From: Rubellimicrobium rubrum
Lineage (GTDB): Bacteria; Pseudomonadota; Alphaproteobacteria; Rhodobacterales; Rhodobacteraceae
NCBI RefSeq assembly: GCF_006152115.1
Contig: NZ_VDFU01000029.1
Location: forward strand, 1 to 43,949
Reading direction: 5' to 3'
DNA length: 43,949 nucleotides
The translations under genes and the position numbers were made by a program. The notes below the pieces were generated by a model that worked only from the letters and a program-made list of their open reading frames with translations, did no database searches and was not told the origin of the DNA. This document shows positions 9,166 to 41,521 of the stretch, in pieces; positions within the stretch are counted from its first letter, which is position 1; each line of letters starts with the position of its first letter.

Positions 9166-10002
9166 ATGCGTGACATGACGGACACAGGCCTGCCCTTCGC
9201 CAAAATGCATGGGCTCGGCAACGACTTTCTGGTGATCGACGGGCGATCTGCGCCGGTGGACGTGACACCCGCGCTTGCGCGTGCCTTGGGCGACCGGCAT
9301 CGGGGGGTCGGCTTCGATCAGTTGGCCGTGATCGCGGCCTCCGAGCAGGCCGACCTTGCCCTGCGGTTCTGGAACGCGGACGGCTCGGAGTCGTCCACCT
9401 GCGGCAATGCGACCCGCTGCATCGCCCGCGCCGAACTCGATCGGACCGGGCGCAAGCATCTCACCATTGCAACCGAGCGTGGGATCCTGAACGCCCGGGA
9501 CGCGAGCGGCGGCCTCACATCGGTCAACTTGGGCGCACCCCGTCTGTTGTGGCACGAGATCCCGCTGGTCGGACCGATGGACACGCTGGAGCTTCCCATC
9601 GAAGGGCGGCCCACGGCGACATCCATGGGCAATCCGCACTGCACCTTCTTTGTCGAGGATGCGGAAGCGGTGGATCTTGGACGCTTCGGCCCTGTCCATG
9701 AGCATAATCCTCTCTTTCCCCAGCGCACCAACGTTCAGGTCGTGCAGGTCCTGTCGCGCGACCGCCTGCGGATGCGGGTCTGGGAGCGAGGGGCGGGATA
9801 CACGCTGGCTTCCGGTTCCTCCTCCTGCGCGGTGACCGTGGCAGCCGCCCGGCGGGGCCTGACGGAGCGGGAGGTGACGGTCGTTCTCGATGGCGGCGAG
9901 TTGCGCATTCGCTGGGCCGAGGATGGCGTCTGGATGACCGGTCCCACCGCACATGTCTTCTCCGGGGTCCTTACCCCCGCCTTCCTGGAAGCACTGGCAT
10001 GA
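9166..10002 (+). CDS. dapF: Diaminopimelate epimerase
   Basis: 278 residues from ATG 9166. ATG 9175 is an equally possible start. The more upstream ATG at 9100 gives an unrelated leader and lies within the upstream region of the tRNA. Family motifs are KMHGLGNDFLVID, STCGNATRC with catalytic Cys79, and WERGAGYTLASGSSSCA. The enzyme isomerises LL- to meso-diaminopimelate for peptidoglycan and lysine. In E. coli-type enzymes the second catalytic cysteine sits in an ACG(S/T)GAC motif. Here that residue is Ser216 (A-S-G), with a Cys five residues later at 221. The stop codon overlaps the start of mtaB (ATGA). Confidence 0.92.
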   Translation: MRDMTDTGLPFAKMHGLGNDFLVIDGRSAPVDVTPALARALGDRHRGVGFDQLAVIAASEQADLALRFWNADGSESSTCGNATRCIARAELDRTGRKHLTIATERGILNARDASGGLTSVNLGAPRLLWHEIPLVGPMDTLELPIEGRPTATSMGNPHCTFFVEDAEAVDLGRFGPVHEHNPLFPQRTNVQVVQVLSRDRLRMRVWERGAGYTLASGSSSCAVTVAAARRGLTEREVTVVLDGGELRIRWAEDGVWMTGPTAHVFSGVLTPAFLEALA

Positions 10003-28482: not shown

Positions 28483-29460
28483 TCAGACCGCCCCGCGATA
28501 GCGCTTGAACCATTCGACAAAGCGAGGAATCCCCACCTCGATGGGAGTGGTGGGCGCGAAGCCGTGGTCGCGGCGGATCGCTGCGATGTCCGCATAGGTC
28601 GAAGGAATGTCGCCCGGCTGGAGCGGCTCCAGACGCCGCTCCGCCTTGCGGCCGATGGATTGTTCCAGCAGGTCGATCATCCGCATCAGCGGCTCGGGCC
28701 GGTTGTTGCCGATGTTGTAGATGCGGTGCGGAGGGGCCGTCCCGTCGTCCATGGGCGGCGCGTCGGCCACGGCCACGACCCCCGCCACGATGTCGTCGAT
28801 GTAGGTGAAGTCGCGCCACATGACGCCATGGTTGAAGACGGGGATCGGCTCGCCCGCCAAGATCGACTCGGTGAACAGCCAGACCGCCATGTCGGGCCGT
28901 CCCCAAGGCCCATAGACAGTGAAGAACCGGAGCCCCGTGAGGGGGATGCGGAACAGATGGGCGTACACGTTCCCCATCAGCTCGTCCGCCTTCTTGGTGG
29001 CGGCGTACAGCGAGACGGGATGATCCACCGGGTCGCTTTCGCTGAAGGGCAGCTTGGTGTTGCCGCCGTAAACCGAGCTCGAGGAGGCGTAGACCACCGA
29101 CTCCAGCCCGTCGAGCTGGCGGGCGTATTCCAGAAGGTTCACCTGACCCACGAGGTTCGCCTGGACATAGGCGCGCGGATTTTCCAGTGAATGCCGCACC
29201 CCGGCCTGCGCGGCGAGGTGGATGATGCGCCGCACCCTTGCCCCGGACAAGGCTGCGTCCAGCGCCGCGGCATCGGCCAGATCGACGTGGCAAAAGGTGA
29301 AGCCCGGCCCCTCGAGCGCGGCCAGCCGCTGCCGCTTCAGCTCGGGCGAATAATAGGGGTTCAGGTCGTCGAGGCCGATCACCCGCTCTCCCCGGTCGAG
29401 CAGGTGCCGCGCGACGTGGAATCCGATGAAGCCGGCCGCGCCGGTGACCAGGGTCGTCAT
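28483..29460 (-). CDS. UDP-glucuronate 4-epimerase-like NAD-dependent epimerase
   Basis: 325 residues from ATG 29460, preceded by GGAGGGG; the longer frame from 29631 has no similarity in its extra part. The NAD motif is VTGAAGFIGFHVARHLL, and the DDLNPYYSPELKRQRLAAL segment is characteristic of UDP-glucuronate epimerases. Catalytic Ser and YxxxK are in YASSSSVYGGNTKLPFSE and SLYAATKKADELM, and RFFTVYGPWGRPDMA also fits. It would convert UDP-glucuronate to UDP-galacturonate for surface polysaccharide. It is divergent from the molybdoenzyme gene at 29671 and convergent with the other epimerase. Confidence 0.9.
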   Translation of the reverse strand: MTTLVTGAAGFIGFHVARHLLDRGERVIGLDDLNPYYSPELKRQRLAALEGPGFTFCHVDLADAAALDAALSGARVRRIIHLAAQAGVRHSLENPRAYVQANLVGQVNLLEYARQLDGLESVVYASSSSVYGGNTKLPFSESDPVDHPVSLYAATKKADELMGNVYAHLFRIPLTGLRFFTVYGPWGRPDMAVWLFTESILAGEPIPVFNHGVMWRDFTYIDDIVAGVVAVADAPPMDDGTAPPHRIYNIGNNRPEPLMRMIDLLEQSIGRKAERRLEPLQPGDIPSTYADIAAIRRDHGFAPTTPIEVGIPRFVEWFKRYRGAV

Positions 29461-29670
29461 GCACCCCTCCGGGCTGCCGATCGGACCGGGCGGAAGGAAA
29501 CGAGGACGAGGATCGGCGTTCTCCCGAATGGGCTTGCGATGCCGCGCAGCCATCGCCCCACCGAGAGGTTCCGTCAAGGCTTGGTCCCTTGGCGGGCCGC
29601 TTATGCCGGCTTCTGTGCGGATGCGCGACACGCCTTATGTTCCCGTTGGGACCAGAAGGAGGCCGGCGCC

Positions 29671-31947
29671 ATGGCAGACGACCCGACGACCCAGCGTGAG
29701 GACACGCCCTACCACCGCGAAGGCGCGGGCGGTTGGGGCTCCGTGGAGGGCATGGCCAAGGTGATGGCCGAGATGAGGCCCACGCCCGCCGTGCTGGACA
29801 CCTTGCGGGTCCAGAACAAGCCGGGCGGCCACATGTGCACCTCCTGTGCTTGGACCAAGCCAAAGGATCCGCACCCCTTCGAGTTCTGCGAGAACGGCGC
29901 CAAGGCTACCATCTGGGACCTGACCTCGGCCCGATGCGGCCCCGATTTCTTTGCCCAGCACACGGTGACCGAACTTCTGGGCTGGACGGATCACGACCTC
30001 GAGGTGCAGGGCCGCCTGACACACCCGATGCGCTACGATCCCCAGTCGGACAAGTACGTGGAAACCACCTGGGAGCAGGCCTTTGCCGGCATCGGGGCGG
30101 AGTTGCGGGTGCTCGACCCCAAGTCGGTCGTCTTTTACACCTCGGGACGCGCCAGCCTGGAGACCTCCTATCTATGGCAGCTTTTCGCGAGGCTTTACGG
30201 GCACAACAACCTGCCCGACAGCTCCAACATGTGCCACGAGACGACAAGTGTAGGCCTGAAGAAGGTCATCGGGTCGTCCGTGGGAACCTGCGTGCTCGAG
30301 GACTTCGACCACTGCGACATGCTCCTGTTCTTTGGGCAGAACACCGGTACCAACAGTCCGCGTTTCCTCCATCCCTTGAAGGAGGCCGCCAAGCGGGGCT
30401 GCCACATCGTGACCTTCAACCCCGTCCGCGAGGCGGGGCTCGTCAAGTTCAGAAGCCCGCAAAGCCCGGCGCAGATGACCATCGGCAGCGCCACGACCAT
30501 CTCGGACACCTATCTCCAAGTTCGCCCCGGTGGGGACATCGCGGCGCTCCTGGGCCTCGTGAAGCGGGTGTTCGAGATCGAGGAGGCTCAGGGCGGCGTC
30601 ATCGACCATGCCTTCGTGGCCGAGCACACCCATGGCTTCGACGCGCTGCGATCCTTTGCCCATGCGACCAGCTGGGACGCCATAGAGGCCGCCGCGGGCC
30701 TGGAGCGCGGGCAACTTGTGGAGGTGGCCGAGATCTATGCCAAGTCCAAGGCGGTGATCGGCATCTACGGCATGGGCCTGACGCAGCATGTCCACGGCTC
30801 CGACAGCATCGCGATGCTGGTGAACCTCCTCCTCCTGCGTGGGAACATCGGCCGGCCGGGAACCGGCATCTCGCCCGTGCGCGGTCATTCCAACGTGCAG
30901 GGCCAGCGCACCGTTGGGATCACCGAAAAGCCCGAGCTTGCCCCCTTGGACAAACTTGGGGAGATGTTCGGCTTCGAGCCCCCGCGAGAGAAGGGGCACA
31001 CCACGGTCGAGGCGGTCGAAGGGCTGCTCGACGGCTCCGTGCGGGGCTTCCTGTCGCTGGGCGGCAACTTCGCCCATGCCATCTCGGACACCGGGCGCGT
31101 GCAGCCGGCGTGGCGCGACCTTGCCGTCAATGTCCAGATCGCGACCAAGCTCAACCGCTCGCATCTCTTGACCTGCCCCACGATGTGGCTGCTCCCCTGC
31201 CTCGTCCGGGCCGAGGAGGACGCGCAGGCCAGCGGCCCGCAGGCCGTCTCCATGGAAGACTCGCTCAGCCACATCCATGGCTCGATGGGCCGCCGCACGC
31301 CCGCCGCTGGCACCCTGCGGTCCGAGCCCGCCATCGTCGCGGGAATCGCCAAGGCGACGCTGCCCCCGAGCCCCAAGGTTCGGTGGGATGAGTGGGTGGG
31401 TGACTACGCCAAGGTCCGAGACCTGATCGCGCAGACCTGGCCCGACCAGTTCGGTGACTTCAACGGGCGGCTCTTCACGCCGGGCGGGTTCTACCGGGGC
31501 AACGCCGCCCGCGACCGCCAGTGGAAGACAGAGTCCGGCCGGGCCGAGTTCACGGTGCCTCCCTCCCTCCAGTCCCTGAAGCGCGAGTTGCGGGACGGGG
31601 AGTACACGCTAGTCACCCTGCGCTCGAACGACCAGTTCAACACGACGATCTACGGCTATTCCGACCGGCTGCGCGGCCTCGACACGGACCGCATGATCGT
31701 CCTGATGAACCCCGAGGAGATCGCCCGCGCGGGGCTGCACGAAGGACAGGCCGTTCGGCTCGTCTGTGCCTTGGACGACGGGCACCACCGAGAGGTGGGC
31801 GGGCTCAGGGTCACCCCCTACGACTTGCCCGACCGCTGCGTCGCGGCCTACTACCCCGAGGCCAATCCCCTTGTTCCGTTGTCCCTGCACGACGAGTTGT
31901 CCAAGACCCCCGCCTACAAGGGCACCCCGGTCCGCATCGAAGCGTAA
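29671..31947 (+). CDS. FdhF/YdeP-family molybdopterin oxidoreductase
   Basis: 758 residues from ATG 29671, preceded by AGAAGGAGG; upstream open frame (to 29191) is antisense to the epimerase and is rejected. The N-terminus (GAGGWGSVEGMAKVM) and cysteine set GGHMCTSCAWTKPKDPHPFEFCENG (Cys56, Cys59, Cys73) match the YdeP group, close to formate-dehydrogenase alpha subunits. Molybdopterin-binding segments include FYTSGRASLETSYLWQLFARLYG, SVGTCVLEDFDHCDMLLFFGQNTGTN and the C-terminal LVTLRSNDQFNTTIYGYSDRLRG. No Tat signal, so cytosolic. E. coli YdeP is linked to acid resistance, but the substrate of the family is not established. Confidence 0.88.
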   Translation: MADDPTTQREDTPYHREGAGGWGSVEGMAKVMAEMRPTPAVLDTLRVQNKPGGHMCTSCAWTKPKDPHPFEFCENGAKATIWDLTSARCGPDFFAQHTVTELLGWTDHDLEVQGRLTHPMRYDPQSDKYVETTWEQAFAGIGAELRVLDPKSVVFYTSGRASLETSYLWQLFARLYGHNNLPDSSNMCHETTSVGLKKVIGSSVGTCVLEDFDHCDMLLFFGQNTGTNSPRFLHPLKEAAKRGCHIVTFNPVREAGLVKFRSPQSPAQMTIGSATTISDTYLQVRPGGDIAALLGLVKRVFEIEEAQGGVIDHAFVAEHTHGFDALRSFAHATSWDAIEAAAGLERGQLVEVAEIYAKSKAVIGIYGMGLTQHVHGSDSIAMLVNLLLLRGNIGRPGTGISPVRGHSNVQGQRTVGITEKPELAPLDKLGEMFGFEPPREKGHTTVEAVEGLLDGSVRGFLSLGGNFAHAISDTGRVQPAWRDLAVNVQIATKLNRSHLLTCPTMWLLPCLVRAEEDAQASGPQAVSMEDSLSHIHGSMGRRTPAAGTLRSEPAIVAGIAKATLPPSPKVRWDEWVGDYAKVRDLIAQTWPDQFGDFNGRLFTPGGFYRGNAARDRQWKTESGRAEFTVPPSLQSLKRELRDGEYTLVTLRSNDQFNTTIYGYSDRLRGLDTDRMIVLMNPEEIARAGLHEGQAVRLVCALDDGHHREVGGLRVTPYDLPDRCVAAYYPEANPLVPLSLHDELSKTPAYKGTPVRIEA

Positions 31948-32056
31948 GGCTACCCACTTCGGACGTTATGAACGGCAGTCCGGCCTTGGGTTCCAGTCGG
32001 GATTTGGGCATATCCGTCGCTTTCGATGCCGACCGGCCGCAGGAGGAGACGCGCCC

Positions 32057-33139
32057 ATGACCACCGACGCCAGCCAGACCCTGCGCTCCGCGCGGGAGGT
32101 GGTCGAGGCCGGGCTTGCCCCTCGGGAGACGCTGTCAAGCCTGGACGCCGTGGCGGCCCGCTATGCGGTCGCCATCACCCCGGCCATGGCGGACCTGATC
32201 GAGCCCGGAGTGCCGGACGATCCCATCGCCCGGCAGTTCGTCCCCGACGAGGCCGAGTTGCGAGGCGCCCCCGAGGAGATCGCCGATCCCATCGGCGATG
32301 ACGCGCACAGCCCCGTGCCAGGCATCGTGCACCGCTATCCCGACCGCGTCCTGTTCAAGCCGCTCCATGTCTGCCCCGTCTACTGCCGCTTCTGTTTCCG
32401 GCGCGAGATGGTGGGCCCCACCGGCCAGGGTAGCCTGAGCGCAGAGGAGACCGAGGCCGCGTTGGGCTATATCCGTGGCACTCCGGCGATCTGGGAAGTG
32501 GTGATCACCGGGGGCGACCCGCTGATCCTGTCCCCGCGACGGCTGCGCGACATCACCGAGCGGCTTTGCGCGATCGACCATGTCCAGGTCGTCCGTTTCC
32601 ATAGCCGGGTGCCGGTGGTGGCCCCGGACCGCGTGACGGACGAATTGGTGGCGGCTCTACGGCCCGATCCCGGCAAGGCTGTCTATGTCGTGCTCCACGC
32701 CAATCACCCGCGCGAGTTGACGCCCGAGGCCCGCGCCGCCTGCGCCCGGCTGGTCGATGCGGGCGTCCCCATGCTCAGCCAGTCCGTGCTGCTCCGAGGC
32801 ATCAACGACCGCCCGGAGGTGCTGGAAGCGCTGATGCGCGGACTCGTGGAGACGCGGATCAAGCCCTACTACCTGCACCACCCGGACCTCGCGCCGGGCA
32901 CCGGCCATTTCCGCCTGCCGATCAGCGAAGGCCAGGCCCTTGTGCGGGCGCTCCGTGGCCGGGTTTCGGGCCTGTGCCAGCCTACCTATGTTCTTGATCT
33001 GCCCAACGGGCACGGAAAGTCGCCCATTGGTCCCGATTACGCGAAGCCCCTCCCGGGCGAGCCCGGCCGCTACAGGGTGGAGGATTATACCGGGCGCGTT
33101 CACGTCTATCCGCCTGGGGACGGACTTGCGCGGGACTGA
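32057..33139 (+). CDS. Lysine 2,3-aminomutase-like radical SAM protein (KamA/EpmB family)
   Basis: 360 residues from ATG 32057, preceded by GGAGGAG. The radical SAM motif is CPVYCRFCFRR (Cys106, Cys110, Cys113). VVITGGDPLILSPRRL and PYYLHHPDLAPGTGHFRLP are family segments, and the Lys in LPNGHGKSPIG is in the expected PLP-lysine position. Such proteins move an amino group between C2 and C3 of lysine. At 360 residues it is close to both short KamA and EpmB, which makes beta-lysine for elongation factor P. No epmA or efp is nearby, so the role remains open. It follows the YdeP-like gene by 109 bp. Confidence 0.85.
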   Translation: MTTDASQTLRSAREVVEAGLAPRETLSSLDAVAARYAVAITPAMADLIEPGVPDDPIARQFVPDEAELRGAPEEIADPIGDDAHSPVPGIVHRYPDRVLFKPLHVCPVYCRFCFRREMVGPTGQGSLSAEETEAALGYIRGTPAIWEVVITGGDPLILSPRRLRDITERLCAIDHVQVVRFHSRVPVVAPDRVTDELVAALRPDPGKAVYVVLHANHPRELTPEARAACARLVDAGVPMLSQSVLLRGINDRPEVLEALMRGLVETRIKPYYLHHPDLAPGTGHFRLPISEGQALVRALRGRVSGLCQPTYVLDLPNGHGKSPIGPDYAKPLPGEPGRYRVEDYTGRVHVYPPGDGLARD

Positions 33140-33254: not shown

Positions 33255-34343
33255 ATGGGGAACAGAATGCGACATCGTCAGACCCCCTCGGCCGCGTCGC
33301 AGGACGAGGCCGAAAACGGGGGCTCGCTGCGGCTCGAGGCGCGCATCGGCGGCGAGATCACCATCCGCCGGCTCCAGATCTTCTGGGCCGTGGCCCACAC
33401 GACCTCGCTGACCAAGGCCGCCAAGCTGCTTGGCGTGACGCAGCCCTCGCTGTCCCAGCAACTGGCCAGCCTCGAGGCGACTATCGGAGCCAGGCTGTTC
33501 GACCGGGTGTCGAACGCGATGCTGCTGACCGAGACCGGAGCATCGATCCTTGGAAAGGCCGAGAACGTCCTGCGGAGCCTCCAGGAATTCGAGGACAGCC
33601 TGCCCGACGCGGGCGCCGGGGCGCACCAGACGATCCGGATCGCGGGCGTGGCTTCGGTGATGCGGACCATCCTGCCCGCAACCCTTCGCCCGCTGCGCGA
33701 GGCGCGGCCGCTCATCGACTTCGATCTCATCGAGGCGGCCCCGGCCGAGATCCTCGACCTGCTGCATGGCAGGCGGGTGAGCCTGGGCCTCCTGCCCTCC
33801 AACGCCGTGGCCGAAGCTGCCAGCGGGTTTCAGCAGCACCTCGTAGCCGAGGACCCCTATGTTCTCGTGGTGCCCGCCTCGCTCGACCTTGCGGGGGTGA
33901 GCGACCCGGAGAAGGATCTGTCGGCGGGCGACCGGAGCCTGCTTCACAGCACCGTCCAGTTCGTCTTCGGGAACCAGCATTCCCGGAGAATCCAGGACTG
34001 GTACGATCAGGTCCTTCCGGGCAACCGGCTGGCCGCGCAGGCGCGCAGCTTTGAGCTGGTCATCGAGATGGTGCGGAGCGGGTTGGGCGTCGGCGTCGTG
34101 CCCGCGCTCAGCGCCATGGCCGGACCGACGCCGATTGACGGCATCCGGCTGCACCGCATCGGCATAGAGCCGCGCCGGATCGTTGCGATGTTCCCGACGC
34201 ACTGCCGCAACCAGGAGCCTTACGCCACGCTCGTGGCCACTCTGCGCGAAGCGGGCACAGGTCTGCGCCTGCCCACCGTCGCCGCGATGCCGCCCTTCAT
34301 CGCCCAGCACGCCGGCGAGGAGGCCGATAGGTCCGGCTTATGA
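33255..34343 (+). CDS. LysR-family transcriptional regulator
   Basis: 362 residues from ATG 33255 (ATG 33267 also possible). The helix-turn-helix is ITIRRLQIFWAVAHTTSLTKAAKLLGVTQPSLSQQLASLEATIGARLF at ~30-77, later than usual because of a ~28-residue N-terminal extension. The effector domain (IRIAGVASVMRTILPATLRPL, VIEMVRSGLGVGVVPALSAMAG) follows. It sits in the same direction about 115 nt upstream of pqqA. LysR proteins often control neighbouring genes and this is the only regulator next to pqq, so regulation of PQQ synthesis is a reasonable inference, unproven. Confidence 0.88.
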   Translation: MGNRMRHRQTPSAASQDEAENGGSLRLEARIGGEITIRRLQIFWAVAHTTSLTKAAKLLGVTQPSLSQQLASLEATIGARLFDRVSNAMLLTETGASILGKAENVLRSLQEFEDSLPDAGAGAHQTIRIAGVASVMRTILPATLRPLREARPLIDFDLIEAAPAEILDLLHGRRVSLGLLPSNAVAEAASGFQQHLVAEDPYVLVVPASLDLAGVSDPEKDLSAGDRSLLHSTVQFVFGNQHSRRIQDWYDQVLPGNRLAAQARSFELVIEMVRSGLGVGVVPALSAMAGPTPIDGIRLHRIGIEPRRIVAMFPTHCRNQEPYATLVATLREAGTGLRLPTVAAMPPFIAQHAGEEADRSGL

Positions 34344-34458: not shown

Positions 34459-34539
34459 ATGGCTTGGAATACCCCCACCGTCGTCGAAGTGCCGGTCGGC
34501 ATGGAAATCAACATGTACGCCTGCGCGAAGACCAAGTGA
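34459..34539 (+). CDS. pqqA: Coenzyme PQQ precursor peptide PqqA
   Basis: A 26-residue peptide, MAWNTPTVVEVPVGMEINMY followed by ACAKTK, too short for ordinary gene calling. Glu16 and Tyr20 in the EINMY motif are the two residues that are cross-linked by PqqE and become the PQQ skeleton. GGGAAGAG lies upstream at a plausible distance. PqqA is bound by PqqD, modified by PqqE, cut out by peptidase(s), and finished by PqqB and PqqC. It is the first gene of pqqABCDE, 34 nt before pqqB. Confidence 0.97.
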   Translation: MAWNTPTVVEVPVGMEINMYACAKTK

Positions 34540-34573
34540 TCTTGGGCCTGCCGCGACCGGAAAGGACGGGCCG

Positions 34574-35476
34574 ATGCTGACGGCCATCGTCCTGGGCGTC
34601 GCGGCAGGCGGCGGCGTACCGCAGTGGAACTGCAACTGCGGCATCTGCCAAGACGCCCGGCGCGACCCCGCCATGCAGAGCGGCCAGGCCTCCCTCGCGG
34701 TGAGCGCGGACGGGCGGAACTGGTTCCTCGTGAACGCCTCGCCCGACCTCAGGGCCCAGGTGATCGCCACGCCCGAGCTTCACCCCGACCCCGCACATCT
34801 GCGCCACACACCCATCGCCGGGGTGGTCCTGACCAATGGCGAGGTCGATGCCGTGGCGGGCCTGCTGTCCATGCGCGAGGGTTCGCCCTTCGGGCTCTGG
34901 GCTGCGCCCAAGGTGCTCGACACGCTGGCTGCGAACCCGATCTTCGGCGTCCTTCCCCCCGACCGCGTGCCCCGTCGCCCCCTGAACCTGAACGAGGCCG
35001 TGGATCTGCCGCTGCCTGACGGCTCCCCCTCCGGCCTGACGGTCGAGGCCTTCGACGTGCCGGGCAAGGTGGCCTGGTATCTCGAAGGGACGGCCCCGGC
35101 GAGCGGCGACACGATCGGCCTCACCTTCCGCGCCGGGGGGCAGACCATCCATGTCGTGACCGCCTGTGCGGGTGTCACCCCCGAACTTGCCGAGCGGCTG
35201 CGCGGCGCGGACACCGTCTTCTTCGACGGCACGCTCTGGACCGACGACGAGATGATCCGCGCGGGTCTGGGCCAGAAGACCGGGCAGCGGATGGGGCACC
35301 TGTCCATGTCGGGCCCGGACGGGTCGATGGCCGCGCTCGGGTCGCTGGGCATTCGGCGCAAGGTCTTCGTCCATGTGAACAATTCGAACCCCGTCCTCCG
35401 GCCGAACTCGCCCGAGCGTCAGGCCGTCGAGGCCGCCGGATGGATCATTCCCCAGCCAGGGAGCCGCTTCGCATGA
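34574..35476 (+). CDS. pqqB: PQQ biosynthesis protein PqqB
   Basis: 300 residues, metallo-beta-lactamase-like fold. The N-terminus LTAIVLGVAAGGGVPQWNCNCGICQDARR carries the CxCxxC structural zinc site of PqqB. LRHTPIAGVVLTNGEVDAVAGLLSMREG, GQTIHVVTACAGVTPEL and TVFFDGTLWTDDEM are conserved blocks. PqqB is thought to hydroxylate the tyrosine ring of the excised Glu-Tyr dipeptide. The stop overlaps the start of pqqC (ATGA), so the two are translationally coupled. Confidence 0.96.
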   Translation: MLTAIVLGVAAGGGVPQWNCNCGICQDARRDPAMQSGQASLAVSADGRNWFLVNASPDLRAQVIATPELHPDPAHLRHTPIAGVVLTNGEVDAVAGLLSMREGSPFGLWAAPKVLDTLAANPIFGVLPPDRVPRRPLNLNEAVDLPLPDGSPSGLTVEAFDVPGKVAWYLEGTAPASGDTIGLTFRAGGQTIHVVTACAGVTPELAERLRGADTVFFDGTLWTDDEMIRAGLGQKTGQRMGHLSMSGPDGSMAALGSLGIRRKVFVHVNNSNPVLRPNSPERQAVEAAGWIIPQPGSRFA

Positions 35477-36237
35477 CCCATCAATCGCCCGTCCTGGCCG
35501 AACCCCAGGAGCCGCTCGACAGCGCGGACGCCATGGAGCGGCGGCTGCGCTGGATCGGGGCCACGCGCTACCATTCGCTCCACCCGTTCCACCGGATGCT
35601 GCACGGGGGCAAGCTGAGCCAGGGTCAGGTGCAGGCCTGGGCGCTGAACCGCTACTACTACCAAAGTTCGATCCCGATAAAGGACGCGGTCGTCCTGTCG
35701 CGCTTCCGCGACCGCCAGCTCCGGCTCGAATGGCGTCACCGGATCGAGGATCACGACGGCTTCTTCGACACCGAGGGCGGGATTGAGCGCTGGCTCAAGC
35801 TGACGGATGGGTTGGGCCTCGACCGCGCCTATGTTGAGTCCACCCAAGGCATTCTCGCCGCCACGCGGTTCGCCGTGGATGCCTATGTCCACTTCGTCCG
35901 CGACCGCACGCCCCTGGAAGCCATCGCCTCCTCCCTGACCGAGCTTTTCGCGCCGAACCTCCACGAGGAGCGAATCTCGGGGATGCTGAAGCATTACGAC
36001 TTCATCAACCCTGCGGTGATGACCTACTTCCAGCGCCGCCTTGATCAGGCCCCGCGCGATGCGGACTTCGCCCTGCGCTACGTGCGCGAGAACGCCCGCA
36101 CCCCGGAGGAGCGTCAGGCCGTCTGCGACGCGCTCACCTTCAAGACGGACTGCCTTTGGGTGCAGCAGGACGCGCTCTACCACGCTTATGTGAACGGCAA
36201 CGTCCCGCCGGGCGCCTTCCGGCCGGAGGGGACGTGA
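35473..36237 (+). CDS. pqqC: Pyrroloquinoline-quinone synthase PqqC
   Basis: 254 residues from ATG 35473, which overlaps the pqqB stop; an earlier in-frame start at 35440 is inside pqqB. All-helical PqqC fold: RYHSLHPFHRMLHGGKLSQGQVQAWALNRYYYQSSIPIKDAVVLSR, WRHRIEDHDG, AVDAYVHFVRDRTPLEAIASSLTELFAPNLHEERI. It is the cofactor-free oxidase of the last step, ring closure and eight-electron oxidation to PQQ. The stop overlaps pqqD. Confidence 0.97.
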   Translation: MTHQSPVLAEPQEPLDSADAMERRLRWIGATRYHSLHPFHRMLHGGKLSQGQVQAWALNRYYYQSSIPIKDAVVLSRFRDRQLRLEWRHRIEDHDGFFDTEGGIERWLKLTDGLGLDRAYVESTQGILAATRFAVDAYVHFVRDRTPLEAIASSLTELFAPNLHEERISGMLKHYDFINPAVMTYFQRRLDQAPRDADFALRYVRENARTPEERQAVCDALTFKTDCLWVQQDALYHAYVNGNVPPGAFRPEGT

Positions 36238-36536
36238 TGCGCCCCGAGATCGCGGCCGGGAGCGTGCCGCGCCTGCCGCGCCATGTGAAGCTGCGCCATG
36301 ACAAGGCCCGCGACCGCTGGCTGATCCTCGTCCCCGAGCGAGTCTTGGTGCCCGACGACACGGCCGTGGCCGTGCTGTCCCGCGTGGACGGAACCCGCAG
36401 CGTGCAGGAGATCGCCGAGGATTTGGCGCAAACCTATCAAGCTCCGGTCGACGTGATCCTGAAGGACAGCGTGGCGCTTCTGCAGGATCTGGCCGACAAG
36501 GGCTTTCTGGCCGTGACGGAGGCGAACCATGCCTGA
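36237..36536 (+). CDS. pqqD: PQQ peptide chaperone PqqD
   Basis: 99 residues from ATG 36237, which shares one base with the pqqC stop. It is a RiPP recognition element: VPRLPRHVKLRHDKARDRWLILVPERVLVPD forms the beta sheet and VDGTRSVQEIAEDLAQTYQAP the helices. PqqD binds the PqqA peptide and presents it to PqqE. The gene is separate, not fused to pqqC or pqqE as in some bacteria, and overlaps pqqE by 8 nt. Confidence 0.96.
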   Translation: MRPEIAAGSVPRLPRHVKLRHDKARDRWLILVPERVLVPDDTAVAVLSRVDGTRSVQEIAEDLAQTYQAPVDVILKDSVALLQDLADKGFLAVTEANHA

Positions 36537-37698
36537 AGACCACGCCGATGACTTCCAGCTCGTCACCCGGACGGGCGAGGATGCGCGTGCCGCTTACGGC
36601 ATTCCGCTCGCCGTGCTGGCCGAGGTGACGCATCGCTGCCCGCTCCAGTGCCCCTACTGCTCGAACCCGCTTGCGATGGAGCCGGCGTCGAACGAGCTTT
36701 CGACGGAGGACTGGCTTCGGGTGATCAGCGAATTGGCGGATCTGGGCGTCCTCCAGATCCACTTCTCCGGCGGAGAGCCGACGGCACGCAAGGATCTGGG
36801 CCAGATGATCGCCCGGGCGACCGATGTTGGGCTCTACTCGAACCTCATCACATCGGCAGTCATGCTGAGCCGCGACAAGCTGGCCGCCCTGGTCGATGCA
36901 GGGCTATGCCACGTCCAGATCAGCGTGCAAGGAGCCGAGGCGGGGCTGGCGGACCGCGTCGGGGGTTACCGCGGCGGCCACGCCAAGAAGATCGAGGCGG
37001 CGCGCTGGACCCGCGAGTTGGACCTGCCGCTGACGGTGAATGCGGTGATGCACCGCCAGAACCTGCACCAGCTCCCAGCCATCATCGACATGGCGGTGGA
37101 GATGGGCGCATCCCGGCTCGAGGTCGCCAACGTCCAGTATTACGGCTGGGCGCTGAAGAACCGCCATGCGCTGATGCCGACCCCTGCGCAGGTCGAGGAC
37201 TGCACCGCCATCGTGGACGCGGCGCGGGTCCGTCTGCATGGCGTGATGGAGATCGACTACGTGATCCCCGACTACTACGCCCTGCGCCCCAAGCAGTGCA
37301 TGGGCGGCTGGGGACGGCAGTTCTTCAACATCTCGCCCGCAGGCAAGGTCCTGCCCTGCCATGCCGCCGAGACGATCACCGGGCTGCAGTTCGATACCGT
37401 TCGCGACCGCTCGCTCGCCTGGATCTGGGAGCATTCCGAGGTCCTGAACGCCTATCGCGGCACCGCCTGGATGCCCGAGCCTTGCAGGGGCTGCGAATGG
37501 AAGGAGGTCGATTTCGGCGGTTGCCGCTGTCAGGCCTTTGCCCTGACCGGATCGGCCGGCAACACGGACCCAGCCTGCGCCAAGTCGCCCCTGCATGACC
37601 GCATCTTCGCCCTGGCCGAAACCGAGGCGACCGAGGAGCGCAACCGCTTCATCTACCGCAACCTGTCGGGCGGGACCGAGGAGGCCGGGCCCGCCTGA
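36529..37698 (+). CDS. pqqE: PqqA peptide cyclase PqqE (radical SAM/SPASM)
   Basis: 389 residues. The radical SAM motif CPLQCPYC has Cys37, Cys41 and Cys44; HFSGGEPTARKDL follows. The C-terminal SPASM domain has cysteines in KQCMGGWGRQFFNISPAGKVLPCHAAE and CRGCEWKEVDFGGCRCQAFALTG for two auxiliary clusters. It forms the carbon-carbon bond between Glu16 and Tyr20 of PqqA. The stop overlaps the start of the S33 hydrolase gene, so that peptidase belongs to the pqq transcript. Confidence 0.97.
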   Translation: MPEDHADDFQLVTRTGEDARAAYGIPLAVLAEVTHRCPLQCPYCSNPLAMEPASNELSTEDWLRVISELADLGVLQIHFSGGEPTARKDLGQMIARATDVGLYSNLITSAVMLSRDKLAALVDAGLCHVQISVQGAEAGLADRVGGYRGGHAKKIEAARWTRELDLPLTVNAVMHRQNLHQLPAIIDMAVEMGASRLEVANVQYYGWALKNRHALMPTPAQVEDCTAIVDAARVRLHGVMEIDYVIPDYYALRPKQCMGGWGRQFFNISPAGKVLPCHAAETITGLQFDTVRDRSLAWIWEHSEVLNAYRGTAWMPEPCRGCEWKEVDFGGCRCQAFALTGSAGNTDPACAKSPLHDRIFALAETEATEERNRFIYRNLSGGTEEAGPA

Positions 37699-38615
37699 TG
37701 GAGGCTGGGGAGGGCTTCTACCTCGATGTGGGCGATGGGCACCGGATCTGGGTCCAGCCCTGGGGCAGCCTGTCCGGGACCCCGATCCTGTTCCTGCATG
37801 GCGGCCCCGGAAGCGGCTGCAACCCCGGGCAGCGGGTGCTGTTCGACTCCTCGCGTCACCGCGTCGTCTTCGTGGACCAGCGCGGGGCGGGACGGAGCCA
37901 GCCGCCCCGCGCGCGACACGCCAACACGACGGCGCACCTTGTCGATGACCTGGAACGGGTCCGAATCCATCAAGGGATCGAACGCTGGCTCGTCGTCGGC
38001 GGCTCTTGGGGAGCGACGCTGGCCCTAGCCTATGCACAGGCCTGTCCGGAGCGTGTCACCGGCCTCGTGCTGCGCGCCACGTTCCTGGGCATGCGGGCCG
38101 AACTCGACTGGGCCTTCGGCATGGGCCTCGCGACCTTCCACCCCCGTCTGCACGCGGGACTCAAGGCCCTTGTGCCGCCCGAAGAGCAGGCGGACCCGCT
38201 GCCGGCGCTCTGGCGGCGCATCCTCGACCCCGATCCGCAGGCGCATGTCCCGGCGGCGATGGCCTGGTTCCACACGGAGCGGGCTCTGTCCGAACTCGTT
38301 CCGCCGACATCCACCCTGCCTCCTGTCGGCAACGGCACGCTTCCGGCAACGCCTTTCATGGAGGCGCATTATTTCCTGCACGGCTGCTTCCTGCCGGAAG
38401 GCGCCCTCCTGGCCGGGGCCTACCGGTTGCATGGGCTGCCGGGAATCCTTGTGCAGGCGCGCTACGATCTTCTGTGCCCGCCCGTCACGGCGCATCGCCT
38501 GGCCGCGCGCTGGCCCGAGGCGCGCGTGGTCGAGGTCGAGGCCGCGGGCCACTCTCTCGGTCACCCGGCGGTCACGGCAGCAGTCCGCGAGGCCGTGGAC
38601 GCGCTCGCGTTCTAA
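37698..38615 (+). CDS. S33 proline-iminopeptidase-like alpha/beta hydrolase in the pqq operon
   Basis: 305 residues from ATG 37698, overlapping the pqqE stop by one base. It is an alpha/beta hydrolase with oxyanion motif FLHGGPGSGCNPGQ, FVDQRGAGRSQP, nucleophile Ser103 in GGSWGATLALAYA, Asp257 in ARYDLLCP and His285 in AAGHSLGHP, the layout of prolyl aminopeptidases (family S33). It removes N-terminal residues from peptides in that family. As the last gene of pqqABCDE it is a candidate for trimming peptide pieces after PqqE acts. No signal peptide, so cytosolic. Substrate specificity is inference. Confidence 0.85.
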   Translation: MEAGEGFYLDVGDGHRIWVQPWGSLSGTPILFLHGGPGSGCNPGQRVLFDSSRHRVVFVDQRGAGRSQPPRARHANTTAHLVDDLERVRIHQGIERWLVVGGSWGATLALAYAQACPERVTGLVLRATFLGMRAELDWAFGMGLATFHPRLHAGLKALVPPEEQADPLPALWRRILDPDPQAHVPAAMAWFHTERALSELVPPTSTLPPVGNGTLPATPFMEAHYFLHGCFLPEGALLAGAYRLHGLPGILVQARYDLLCPPVTAHRLAARWPEARVVEVEAAGHSLGHPAVTAAVREAVDALAF

Positions 38616-41521
38616 CGGTCCTCCTCGGCCAGAACGAAGGCGCCCGGCCGCTCCTCCAAGGCCGCTCGGAGAGCCACCTCGGGGCCCAGCACCACGACGG
38701 GGCCGGTCGGGATCGTCGCATCGAGGGCGTCCGCCAGACCGAGCAGATCGTCGGGCCGTGCTGCAAGCACCGCGTCAAGCTCTGCCTGCCGCAGGTCGTC
38801 GGTCAGACCGATCAGGTGGCGCTGCAGGAGGTCGAGCGCGAGGGTATCGGACGGCAGGGGGCGGTCCAGGGCGGCCACTGCGCCGACTACGGCGCGGTCC
38901 AGAAGCTCGGGACTCGCCATCCGGCGCAGCCATGCCCCGCTCTCCGCAAAGGCGTCCAGGGTCCGTAGAAGATGCGGGTCCCGAAACGACAGGAATGTCG
39001 CCACCCCGGTCTGGCTATCGAGTCGTGCTGTCACCCCGTACGCGCCGCCGGCCACCCGCACAGCGTCCCACAGCCAACCCGTCGCGATGGCGCAAAGGCC
39101 GATCCGTGCGCCCCCCACGGCAAGGCGCCCCGCATCGCCCAGCTCGGCCGCGAGACCCACGGCCTGGACGGGCAGCGCAACCTCATGGCCTTCATGGCGG
39201 CATCCAAGACCGGCGACCTGCGGCGGGCTGTCTGTTCCGGGGCCCCCCTGCTCTTCGGCAAGGGCGGCGAGCAACCGCTCGCCCGACGCGGCGGCGTCCA
39301 TCCCGGCCAACCCCAGTGTCAGCCGCGCCGGATCGAAAAAGCGGGACCGCAGATCCCGAAGATCGTCCATAACCTGGTCCGGCGCCACCTCAAGCCTCAG
39401 AGCAAGGTGCTGCAGAAAAACAAGCTGGCCAAGGCCGTCGAGCCGATCCGCCATGGCTCCTGCTAGCCCGGTCATCGCGCGAAGCCGCAGGTCCACCATC
39501 TGATGGCCAGCCAACCGAAGTCGCGCCTGCTGTCGGGCGATCCCTTCCTGGATGAAGGCCTCTACTGTGCGGGGCTCCGGCCTGAACGGCTCCGCGAGCG
39601 CTTGGCCCATCCGGTCGAGCAGATCGGCCCCTTGCTCGGCCAGGGCCTTGCCGCGCAACACTAGCCCGGCCCGGGCCCCCCGCGGTCCGGCCCGGCTCCA
39701 GACCTCCGGGACGAGCAGCCCGTTGGAACCAGCGGTCCCCTGTGTCAGGAGGCGTCCGAGAGTCGGGACCAGATCGAGAGCGGCCAGCGGCAGGCCCGTC
39801 AGATCGATGGCGAGATCGGCCCGGACGATGCCAGGTTCCCCTAGCTCCATCCGGAGAACCGATCCGGCCGTCCGGATCGGCACTCGGTCCAGATGTCGGG
39901 GCAGTTCGGCCCGGGACAGGACGGGCAGGCTCCGCCGGGCGGCTGCCGAGTCCTCAGGGCCCCTGCGCCGCGCCGCTGTCTTTCGCGCCAGGGTCCGACG
40001 CATGGCCGGGGTCAAGCCCTTCGCGATGACCGCGAGACGGTCCGCTTCCGGATCCGGCAGCACCCCAGTCGGTTCGGGCCAGAGGGTCACCCGGTGCGGG
40101 TTGTCCAGAAGCTCCGCCCGGATCGCCTCCCGGAGAGGCGCCCCCCCCTGCCCCGCGCTGGCCCGAAGATGAACCAAGGCCGGAGCATGATCCAGCAGGT
40201 CCAGAGGATCGACGCCATGCCGCCAGGGCCCAAGGATCCGGTCCAGGACCACGAGGCCGCGCGGACGCGGGCCAGACAGGTTTTCCCGCAGGCGCAGCTC
40301 GAACACGTCGAGGCACCGCTCCAGATGCCCGTCCTCGAAGCCGTGGCGGACCACCCGATCCAAGGCCGCGAATATCAGGCCCTGCGCATCGTCCGGCCGT
40401 TCGGCCCCGATCCCCTCGATCCCCAGGCTGAGCACGGGCCCGCGGAACGCATCCAGACGCGGCATGCTGGGCATGATCCGCCCCGTGCCGGCCGTCCGCA
40501 GCGCGACGGGCCAAGGGGCTGCGGCTCCGTCGGCCAGAGCGCGCGTCATGAAGGCGCGTCGATAGAACTCCGGGGCTCCTGTGGTTTCAGGGAGAACCCA
40601 GCCTAACGCCATAAGGCCCGACGCATTCCCTCCCTGCCCGGCCTTGGACGGCCGATCCGTTCGCGGGGGTCCGAGCGGCGTCGTGATCGAGACGGGATCC
40701 TGCGGCGCGAAGCCGCTGAAACAATGGTCGATCTGATCCAGCCGAGCGCTGATGTCGTGGTTTCCCCAAAGAAACAGGCGCGCATTGGAGGGATGGTAGT
40801 GGCGGCTGTGAAAGGCCACCAGATCTGCAAGGGTCAGATCGGGAATGCTGTCCGGCCTCCCGCCATAGGCATGTTCATAAACCGTGCCAGGCAAAAGGGC
40901 CCGTCGCAGGTCCTCCAGCAGGACGTTCGCTGGGGAAGCGAAGTGCCCCTTCATCTCGGACAGCACGATGCCCCCCAGGCGGGGCTTCGAAGACAGGCCG
41001 TCCAGCGCCAGGTGCCATCCTTCCTCATCGAAGTCGGCCTCCCGCAGAAGCGGTCGGAGGACGGCATCGAGCGTCACCGCGATCAGGTGATCCAAATCGG
41101 CGTGGTTCTGGCTGGCCAAGTGAAAGCTGGTCAGATCCGGTCCCGTGGTGGCGTTGAGAGCGGTGTGGAGCGACCCTTGCAGAAGTCCGGCGAAGGGGCG
41201 GCGCAGCGGATAGGCCTGCGATCCGCGGAACACCATGTGCTCAAGGACATGTGCCACGCCCGTATCGTTCACGGGCAGGGTGGCGAAGGTGATCGCAAAA
41301 AGCTTGTTGGCGTCGGGCGTTCGGACGACGACGACCTCGGCTCCGGTAATCCGATGCGTCAAGTGCCAGCCTTTGCCGTCGAGTTCGGGCAAAGGGCGCC
41401 ACGAGCGGATGAGGAAGGCGGGATGGTCGATCAACCGCTGACCTTTCCAATCCGTGGTGGGCCGCCGAGAACGAGCCGCGGCGCTTGCCTGGAGGCAAGG
41501 ATGCTCGATCTGACAGACCAT
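38612..41521 (-). CDS. M16C zinc metallopeptidase (PreP-like), beside the pqq operon
   Basis: 969 residues in one chain, as in presequence-protease-type M16C enzymes. The inverted zinc motif HxxEH is His91-Val-Leu-Glu94-His95 (GVAHVLEHMVFRGS) and the third ligand is Glu189 in VLSEMKGHFASP, spaced like the PreP site. LLQGSLHTALNATTGPDLTSFHLASQNHADLDHL is a typical substrate-cage segment. The C-terminal half is degenerate, as usual. Such enzymes degrade unfolded peptides of about 10-65 residues. The stop overlaps the S33 gene's stop on the other strand. Classic PqqF/PqqG are different M16 members; this one may supply that function. ATG 41521 gives a ~40-residue N-terminal extension, so a later start is possible. 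Confidence 0.85.
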   Translation of the reverse strand: MVCQIEHPCLQASAAARSRRPTTDWKGQRLIDHPAFLIRSWRPLPELDGKGWHLTHRITGAEVVVVRTPDANKLFAITFATLPVNDTGVAHVLEHMVFRGSQAYPLRRPFAGLLQGSLHTALNATTGPDLTSFHLASQNHADLDHLIAVTLDAVLRPLLREADFDEEGWHLALDGLSSKPRLGGIVLSEMKGHFASPANVLLEDLRRALLPGTVYEHAYGGRPDSIPDLTLADLVAFHSRHYHPSNARLFLWGNHDISARLDQIDHCFSGFAPQDPVSITTPLGPPRTDRPSKAGQGGNASGLMALGWVLPETTGAPEFYRRAFMTRALADGAAAPWPVALRTAGTGRIMPSMPRLDAFRGPVLSLGIEGIGAERPDDAQGLIFAALDRVVRHGFEDGHLERCLDVFELRLRENLSGPRPRGLVVLDRILGPWRHGVDPLDLLDHAPALVHLRASAGQGGAPLREAIRAELLDNPHRVTLWPEPTGVLPDPEADRLAVIAKGLTPAMRRTLARKTAARRRGPEDSAAARRSLPVLSRAELPRHLDRVPIRTAGSVLRMELGEPGIVRADLAIDLTGLPLAALDLVPTLGRLLTQGTAGSNGLLVPEVWSRAGPRGARAGLVLRGKALAEQGADLLDRMGQALAEPFRPEPRTVEAFIQEGIARQQARLRLAGHQMVDLRLRAMTGLAGAMADRLDGLGQLVFLQHLALRLEVAPDQVMDDLRDLRSRFFDPARLTLGLAGMDAAASGERLLAALAEEQGGPGTDSPPQVAGLGCRHEGHEVALPVQAVGLAAELGDAGRLAVGGARIGLCAIATGWLWDAVRVAGGAYGVTARLDSQTGVATFLSFRDPHLLRTLDAFAESGAWLRRMASPELLDRAVVGAVAALDRPLPSDTLALDLLQRHLIGLTDDLRQAELDAVLAARPDDLLGLADALDATIPTGPVVVLGPEVALRAALEERPGAFVLAEEDR

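Follow-up and report, generated by a model that had tools for sequence, protein, structure and literature searches.

The crosslinking of a glutamate and a tyrosine in the peptide PqqA is established for PqqE in general (PMC10906245), and PqqA is cut by peptidases of the PqqF/PqqG type (PMC12997753, PMC10906245, PMC8602642); here and below, statements from the literature rest on excerpts of the papers cited. In Methylorubrum extorquens, where pqqF is required for growth on methanol, PqqF and PqqG form a two-chain heterodimer whose locus tags lie far from those of pqqBCDE (PMC7391723), and in Pseudomonas a peptidase gene of the prolyl oligopeptidase family, pqqG (also named pqqH or pqqM), comes right after pqqE (PMC12997753). 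The rare cluster described here, for synthesis of the vitamin-like cofactor pyrroloquinoline quinone (PQQ), lies in Rubellimicrobium rubrum, on a contig of 43,949 nucleotides (NZ_VDFU01000029.1) that was analysed whole and is called the window (contig C22 of the 104 contigs of a 4.6 Mb genome). It joins a complete pqqABCDE to genes for two further peptidases, a relative of prolyl aminopeptidase of family S33 and a PreP-type zinc peptidase of the M16C class. From sequence comparisons we lean, by a little, towards the view that the M16C endopeptidase and the S33 aminopeptidase are a dedicated pair for trimming PqqA, linked to the pathway, probably helpful to it and dispensable. Within the open-licence literature, as far as its excerpts reach, no publication was found that joins PreP or an S33 peptidase with pqq; what is new here is a variant of a known step, the processing of PqqA by M16 enzymes.

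Two peptidases beside pqqABCDE

A LysR gene, pqqA, B, C, D and E and the S33 gene run head-to-tail, and the M16C gene faces them on the minus strand. The five pqq genes stand in order, each above the curated cut-off of its NCBIfam PQQ family. The earlier note on this DNA, made from the letters alone, had called them complete and overlapping: they are complete, and pqqB to pqqE do overlap (pqqB/C by 4 bases, pqqC/D by 1, pqqD/E by 8), while pqqA is set off from pqqB by a gap of 34 bases. It was right that the S33 gene overlaps pqqE (by 1 base) and that the gene for the 969-residue M16C protein meets the S33 gene tail to tail, the two reading frames sharing the 4 bases 38612-38615.

The M16C protein carries the M16, M16_C, M16C_assoc (PF08367, 42.6 bits; cut-off 25.3) and PreP_C (PF22516, 92 bits; cut-off 27) domains, and its residues 46-962 match Arabidopsis PreP at E=4e-117. 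H91, E94, H95, E167, R822 and Y828 do not vary across 20 aligned PreP proteins. An AlphaFold model (pLDDT 87.1) reaches a TM score of 0.88 to Arabidopsis PreP (2FGE) and, among the matches listed, at most 0.65 to insulin-degrading enzyme and pitrilysin, so that the protein is predicted to be a single-chain PreP fold. Domain content, catalytic residues and fold are those of the PreP/falcilysin (M16C) group; unlike organellar PreP, which degrades targeting peptides, the window's enzyme is bacterial and adjoins pqq. PqqF of Klebsiella, Serratia and Pseudomonas, which we take to be of class M16A, is likewise an M16 zinc peptidase of one chain whose gene accompanies pqqABCDE, whereas the window's protein is an M16C enzyme of 969 residues that gives no match to the PqqF model TIGR02110 (equivalog cut-off 320 bits) at E<=0.01, a model matched weakly by 9 of the 20 aligned PreP proteins (best 2e-5). 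The best Protein Data Bank (PDB) matches listed for the M16C protein, whether by sequence or by fold, did not include Serratia PqqF. From the PqqF/PqqG pair of M. extorquens it is set apart by architecture, not by sequence comparison, being one fused chain at the pqq locus. A review puts the chamber of Arabidopsis PreP at 10,000 and that of Serratia PqqF at 9,400 cubic angstrom (PMC12731061).

Three other M16 proteins were found in the genome: a pair on contig C7 with hydrophobic, signal-like N-termini, and a 421-residue protein on contig C14 without a strongly hydrophobic N-terminus. Against TIGR02110 the first of the C7 pair scores 66.7 and the C14 protein 62.7 bits, below the 320-bit cut-off. 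Because its first 60 residues show no hydrophobic stretch in a simple hydropathy count, unlike both C7 proteins, the window's M16C probably resides in the cytosol, the site of PqqA synthesis.

The S33 protein has the family, the catalytic triad and the two N-terminus-binding glutamates of prolyl aminopeptidase (S33, TIGR01249), and its best PDB match is the Serratia enzyme 1QTR (E=5e-66). The Ser-Asp-His triad and the equivalents of Glu204 and Glu232 are kept in 37 of 37 aligned S33 rows. It differs from that enzyme in being encoded in a pqq operon, in falling below the family cut-off (243.3 against 259.75 bits) and in carrying alanine at the Tyr149 position. The Pseudomonas operon has a prolyl oligopeptidase, presumably of class S9, at the place of the S33 gene here. 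In prolyl aminopeptidase, Glu204 and Glu232 bind the substrate, and Phe139 and Tyr149 belong to the proline pocket (PMC9147577). Phe139 is kept in the window's protein; the Tyr149 position holds alanine in 8 of 8 pqq-linked S33 proteins of Rhodobacterales and phenylalanine in all 12 Rhodobacterales housekeeping copies. In the family of genome G556 (f171), all 17 proteins, of which 9 are linked to pqq and 8 are unlinked, have alanine, glycine or valine there, so that an altered pocket also occurs outside pqq clusters. The proline pocket of the operon enzyme thus appears to have been opened through loss of an aromatic residue. The genome's own housekeeping S33 protein, on contig C11, is 48% identical to the operon enzyme and scores 388.8 bits, and the operon gene is an extra one, distinct from that of the local prolyl aminopeptidase. 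That it arose by recent local duplication of the housekeeping gene was considered and rejected, the tree separating the 12 Rhodobacterales housekeeping rows (support 99/100).

Linkage to one pqq type

Every PreP-type M16C found in a Rhodobacterales genome with pqqE adjoins pqqE-S33, seven of seven cases in five genera or lineages: the window's genome, its genus-mates G581 and Rubellimicrobium roseum (G583), Roseitranquillus (G048), Pontibaca, the metagenome-assembled genome HKST-UBA101 and Limimaricola, whose M16C gene is cut by the contig end. The co-occurrence and synteny that the earlier note wanted to see in Rhodobacterales are thus present. The M16C gene lies on the strand of pqqE-S33 in Pontibaca and Limimaricola and on the opposite strand in the rest, so that the adjacency survives inversion. 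The six full-length linked proteins all keep their catalytic residues and form one clade (100/99), whose sister is the PreP of G607 together with that of an uncultured bacterium; the window's protein is 32-35% identical to the full-length linked ones of other genera.

Across 198 genomes of the family, evenly drawn at nearly one per genus, pqqE exceeded the cut-off in 43 and a long PreP match was present in 4. Both pqqE genomes with a long PreP (the window's own and Roseitranquillus) carry M16C and S33 next to pqq. The remaining two PreP genomes (G033, which is 74% complete, and G172) have no pqqE above the cut-off, and their PreP belongs to another clade. Four family genomes (the window's own, G048, G091 and G051) have the window's pqq type, marked by a LysR gene upstream and by PqqE of 71-74% identity to that of the window, and in the 39 remaining loci PqqE is 50-59% identical and neither S33 nor M16C lies in the stretch fetched. 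Within the genus, five of eight genomes have pqqE and four have M16C, exactly the four of the window's pqq type (intact in three, a remnant in G585); M16C is absent from G584, which has the other pqq type, and from the three genomes without pqqE.

A wider scan with an M16C alignment against the genome contigs of 84,980 species gave at least 598 stretches. Among the best 80 of 290 confirmed loci, five are from Rhodobacterales (R. roseum, Roseitranquillus, Pontibaca, HKST-UBA101 and Limimaricola), all of them pqqABCDE-S33-M16C, and no pqq gene was found at the 75 others, which are further PreP genes, weaker M16 matches and some short contigs. R. roseum, Pontibaca, HKST-UBA101 and Limimaricola were found by the M16C query and say nothing on how often the pqq type lacks M16C; the unbiased counts are those of the family, two with M16C among four genomes of the type, and of the genus, three with an intact M16C and one with a remnant among four. 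A plasmid search with M16C returned 32 records, none above 60% identity and none with a pqq link in the 20 rows listed.

The peptide substrate differs between the pqq types as well. The window's PqqA, MAWNTPTVVEVPVGMEINMYACAKTK, has Glu16 and Tyr20 in ExxxY spacing and a short basic tail, ACAKTK, and a tail of this kind (ACAK.K-like) is found in all eight other loci read of the window's type (six with the pair, two without). Among the 38 loci of the common Rhodobacterales type, PqqA could be read by pattern search in 28, of which 27 have a longer acidic tail (YGP...DD...LF). In the loci read, each tail type accompanies one of the two pqqE types, L093 being the single exception, a common-type PqqA without the longer tail. 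Since the basic tail is common to members without M16C and S33, the tail alone is no predictor of the peptidases.

In the pqqE tree, 10 Rhodobacterales sequences of the window's type and 4 S33-type sequences of family f171 form a clade (100/99), and the common Rhodobacterales pqqE (8 rows) stands separate (100/100); of the 65 class rows the tree includes the 34 that scored best, along with 8 of the other Rhodobacterales type, and its bootstrap was not fully settled. Of 90 f171 genomes, 58 have pqqE and 20 have S33 at E<=1e-84, which in 11 lies directly behind pqqE, without M16C (pqqABCDE-S33 in, for example, L255, L294, L295 and L296), and in 9, one of them without pqqE, does not. This pqq type thus appears to occur in two alphaproteobacterial families as pqqABCDE-S33, to which Rhodobacterales would have added a PreP-class M16C. 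The simplest history would be that pqqABCDE-S33 moved between families, that M16C joined it in Rhodobacterales and that some losses followed. On the S33 tree the pqq-linked proteins fall on the f171 side, their exact placement against linked and unlinked f171 rows not resolving, and the label "pqq-linked" takes 6 changes, and pqq linkage was therefore gained or lost several times. The f171 rows of that tree were picked from matches at E<=1e-84 and are hence the most similar ones; it retains the fragment L280 (15% filled, on a very long branch), which was dropped from the residue alignment, and omits L275 as a copy of L255.

As a side observation, the G607 PreP gene (L284:7281-12291), from the sister group of the linked clade, adjoins and diverges from a gene for a PQQ alcohol dehydrogenase (TIGR03075, 465.5 bits; cut-off 480). 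G607 holds 30 matches to such dehydrogenases, and this neighbourhood may therefore be chance; no such gene lies in the locus of the other sister row, L159.

A putative role on PqqA and its rivals

We envisage that PqqE, with PqqD, crosslinks Glu16 and Tyr20 of PqqA; that M16C, probably in the cytosol, would then close around the 26-residue peptide and cleave it to short fragments, the task of PqqF or PqqF/PqqG in other bacteria; and that S33, its pocket opened, would remove residues from the N-termini so exposed, such as those before Glu16, letting PqqB and PqqC act. The substrate, cleavage sites, order of steps and location of the pair in this scheme are ones that we infer. In its more specific form, in which M16C and the remodelled S33 are a dedicated, PqqF-independent system that frees the crosslinked Glu-Tyr unit, the proposal is tentative and open to some doubt. 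It is here that the alternative system of the earlier note is taken up: the genes track the pqq type and each other and keep their catalytic residues, yet the pair is not obligatory, because G091 and G051 lack both genes and G585 has only a remnant of M16C.

Several observations weigh against the pair as PqqA-trimming enzymes. Neither gene lies near pqq in G091 and G051, both of the window's pqq type (the G091 contig stops 1.1 kb past pqqE), and neither genome has a long PreP match elsewhere among the best first-pass candidates scored. G585 is a draft in 500 contigs, with 85% completeness and 6% contamination. Behind its intact S33 gene, about 170 residues from the C-terminus of M16C persist in two frames (L254:3898-4403); pqqCDE-S33 and a PQQ dehydrogenase gene are retained all the same, pqqB being cut by the contig start. 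That the loss of M16C is tolerated speaks against its being indispensable. M16C also changes far more quickly than the pqq genes: when the window is compared with two genus-mates, identity is 84-94% for pqqB-E, 77-79% for S33 and 54-58% for M16C, and rough NG86 dN/dS values are 0.08-0.2 for the pqq genes, 0.2 for S33 and about 0.3 for M16C, which is under purifying selection, but loosely. In a survey of 385 Alphaproteobacteria, 67 have pqqE and 3 have PreP, both occurring together only in the window's genome, and in f171 the one PreP among 90 genomes (G607, which has pqqE) is not at pqq. The pqq-linked S33 proteins do not all fall in one clade of the S33 tree, and in Pseudomonas putida the peptidase gene at the end of the operon could be deleted with growth on volatile alcohols unimpaired (PMC12997753).

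Nor do most pqq loci have an M16 neighbour. The 41 other loci of the family (L066-L106) and 66 loci of the class, several of them cut by contig ends, showed none near pqq in a search with a home-made profile that does pick up the two C7 proteins, the C14 protein and all 8 PreP controls; the neighbourhoods of these 107 loci name no endopeptidase of the M16 kind, and S33 is nearby in one (G556). The observation that no standard pqqF is present stands, in that the three other M16 proteins score below the PqqF cut-off, but it is no clue: M16-free loci are the norm in the class as sampled, so that the absence of pqqF proves nothing, and the idea that it points to M16C was rejected. One pqq locus per genome was examined, though some class genomes hold two or three pqqE matches above the cut-off (G322, G213, G256, G472 and G549; in tandem in G322, C1:63461-65656).

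Among the rival explanations we regard as unlikely, though the best of them, one in which PqqA is opened by another protease (the C14 M16 protein, or TldD/TldE) and M16C and S33 degrade the proline-containing leader and tail pieces, so that PqqD and PqqE are not clogged. The remnant in G585, the absence from G051 and G091 and the fast evolution of M16C all fit such clean-up, as does the further M16 gene of the genome whose product has no strongly hydrophobic N-terminus; PreP enzymes degrade spent targeting peptides (PMC12731061), and TldD and TldE are implicated in PQQ synthesis in Gluconobacter (PMC8602642). What it leaves unexplained is why an altered S33 stands directly behind pqqE in two families and why its proline pocket has changed. 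The comparisons suggest work on PqqA as the most economical role of the pair; the choice between an excision step and clean-up is beyond the reach of sequence.

It is improbable that S33 alone is a real pathway enzyme and M16C a passenger, captured once and carried along with pqqABCDE-S33. The 11 f171 genomes with pqqE-S33 and no M16C, the intact S33 where M16C is a remnant and the position of M16C as the fastest-evolving gene would all be expected of a passenger, but not an adjacency kept through inversion and divergence down to 32-35% identity, nor catalytic residues kept in six of six full-length proteins with dN/dS clearly below 1. Very improbable are chance neighbours with no part in PQQ synthesis: both genes come from common peptidase families, an S33 of the operon kind being present at E<=1e-40 in 189 of the 198 family genomes, but long PreP occurs in only 4 of these, both of those with pqqE touch the pqq cluster, and co-occurrence with adjacency recurs in five genera or lineages. 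With a linkage this strong and this specific, chance can be rejected.

We thus favour the trimming pair as something that probably improves or specialises PqqA processing and is not indispensable to it. If the pair works on PqqA, PreP, known from organelles, would be tied to the biosynthesis of a cofactor; the excision scheme, if true, would have an M16C enzyme act in biosynthesis on a ribosomal peptide and would make S33 a missing exopeptidase that trims ends in PQQ synthesis, in the other alphaproteobacterial family with pqqE-S33 as well. In the window's cluster type the locus itself offers two candidates, an endopeptidase and an exopeptidase. It is known in named strains (R. roseum, Roseitranquillus sediminis and Pontibaca salina), and natural variants without M16C, or without both peptidases, offer a comparison.

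Layout of the locus

Table 1. Genes of the PQQ cluster in the window, with profile scores and key residues.
Feature	Position	Strand	Remarks
LysR-type regulator gene	33255-34343	+	PF00126/PF03466; directly upstream of pqqA
pqqA	34459-34539	+	26 aa; Glu16/Tyr20; TIGR02107 45.6 bits, cut-off 20
pqqB	34574-35476	+	TIGR02108 375.8 bits, cut-off 245
pqqC	35473-36237	+	longer frame/alternative start 35440; TIGR02111 355.4 bits, cut-off 240
pqqD	36237-36536	+	TIGR03859 71.6 bits, cut-off 46
pqqE, radical SAM/SPASM	36529-37698	+	TIGR02109 567.4 bits, cut-off 381.35
S33 aminopeptidase, prolyl aminopeptidase relative	37698-38615	+	triad S103/D257/H285; N-terminus binders E194/E222; A139 at the Serratia Tyr149 position
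M16C (PreP-type) single-chain zinc peptidase, 969 aa	38612-41521	-	H91-x-x-E94-H95, E167, R822/Y828

The LysR gene is likely the regulator of the pqq operon. Of the 9 loci of the window's pqq type that could be assessed, 7 (the window, L065, L066, L089, L111, L113 and L251) have such a gene directly 5' of pqqA, and none was found next to pqqA in L109 and L155. A promoter scan gave no hit, and terminator-like sites were no more frequent than in shuffled sequence.

Two genes for PQQ alcohol dehydrogenases exceed the cut-off in the window's own genome, and such a gene is found in 12 of 42 pqq loci of the family or of named relatives, among them L065 and L110 (Roseitranquillus) and L155 (Limimaricola). 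Upstream of the cluster, a frame for an FdhF/YdeP-like molybdopterin oxidoreductase (29191-31947) overlaps one for a lysine-2,3-aminomutase-like radical SAM protein (31766-33139), and the true starts of these frames (29191-33139) are probably further downstream.

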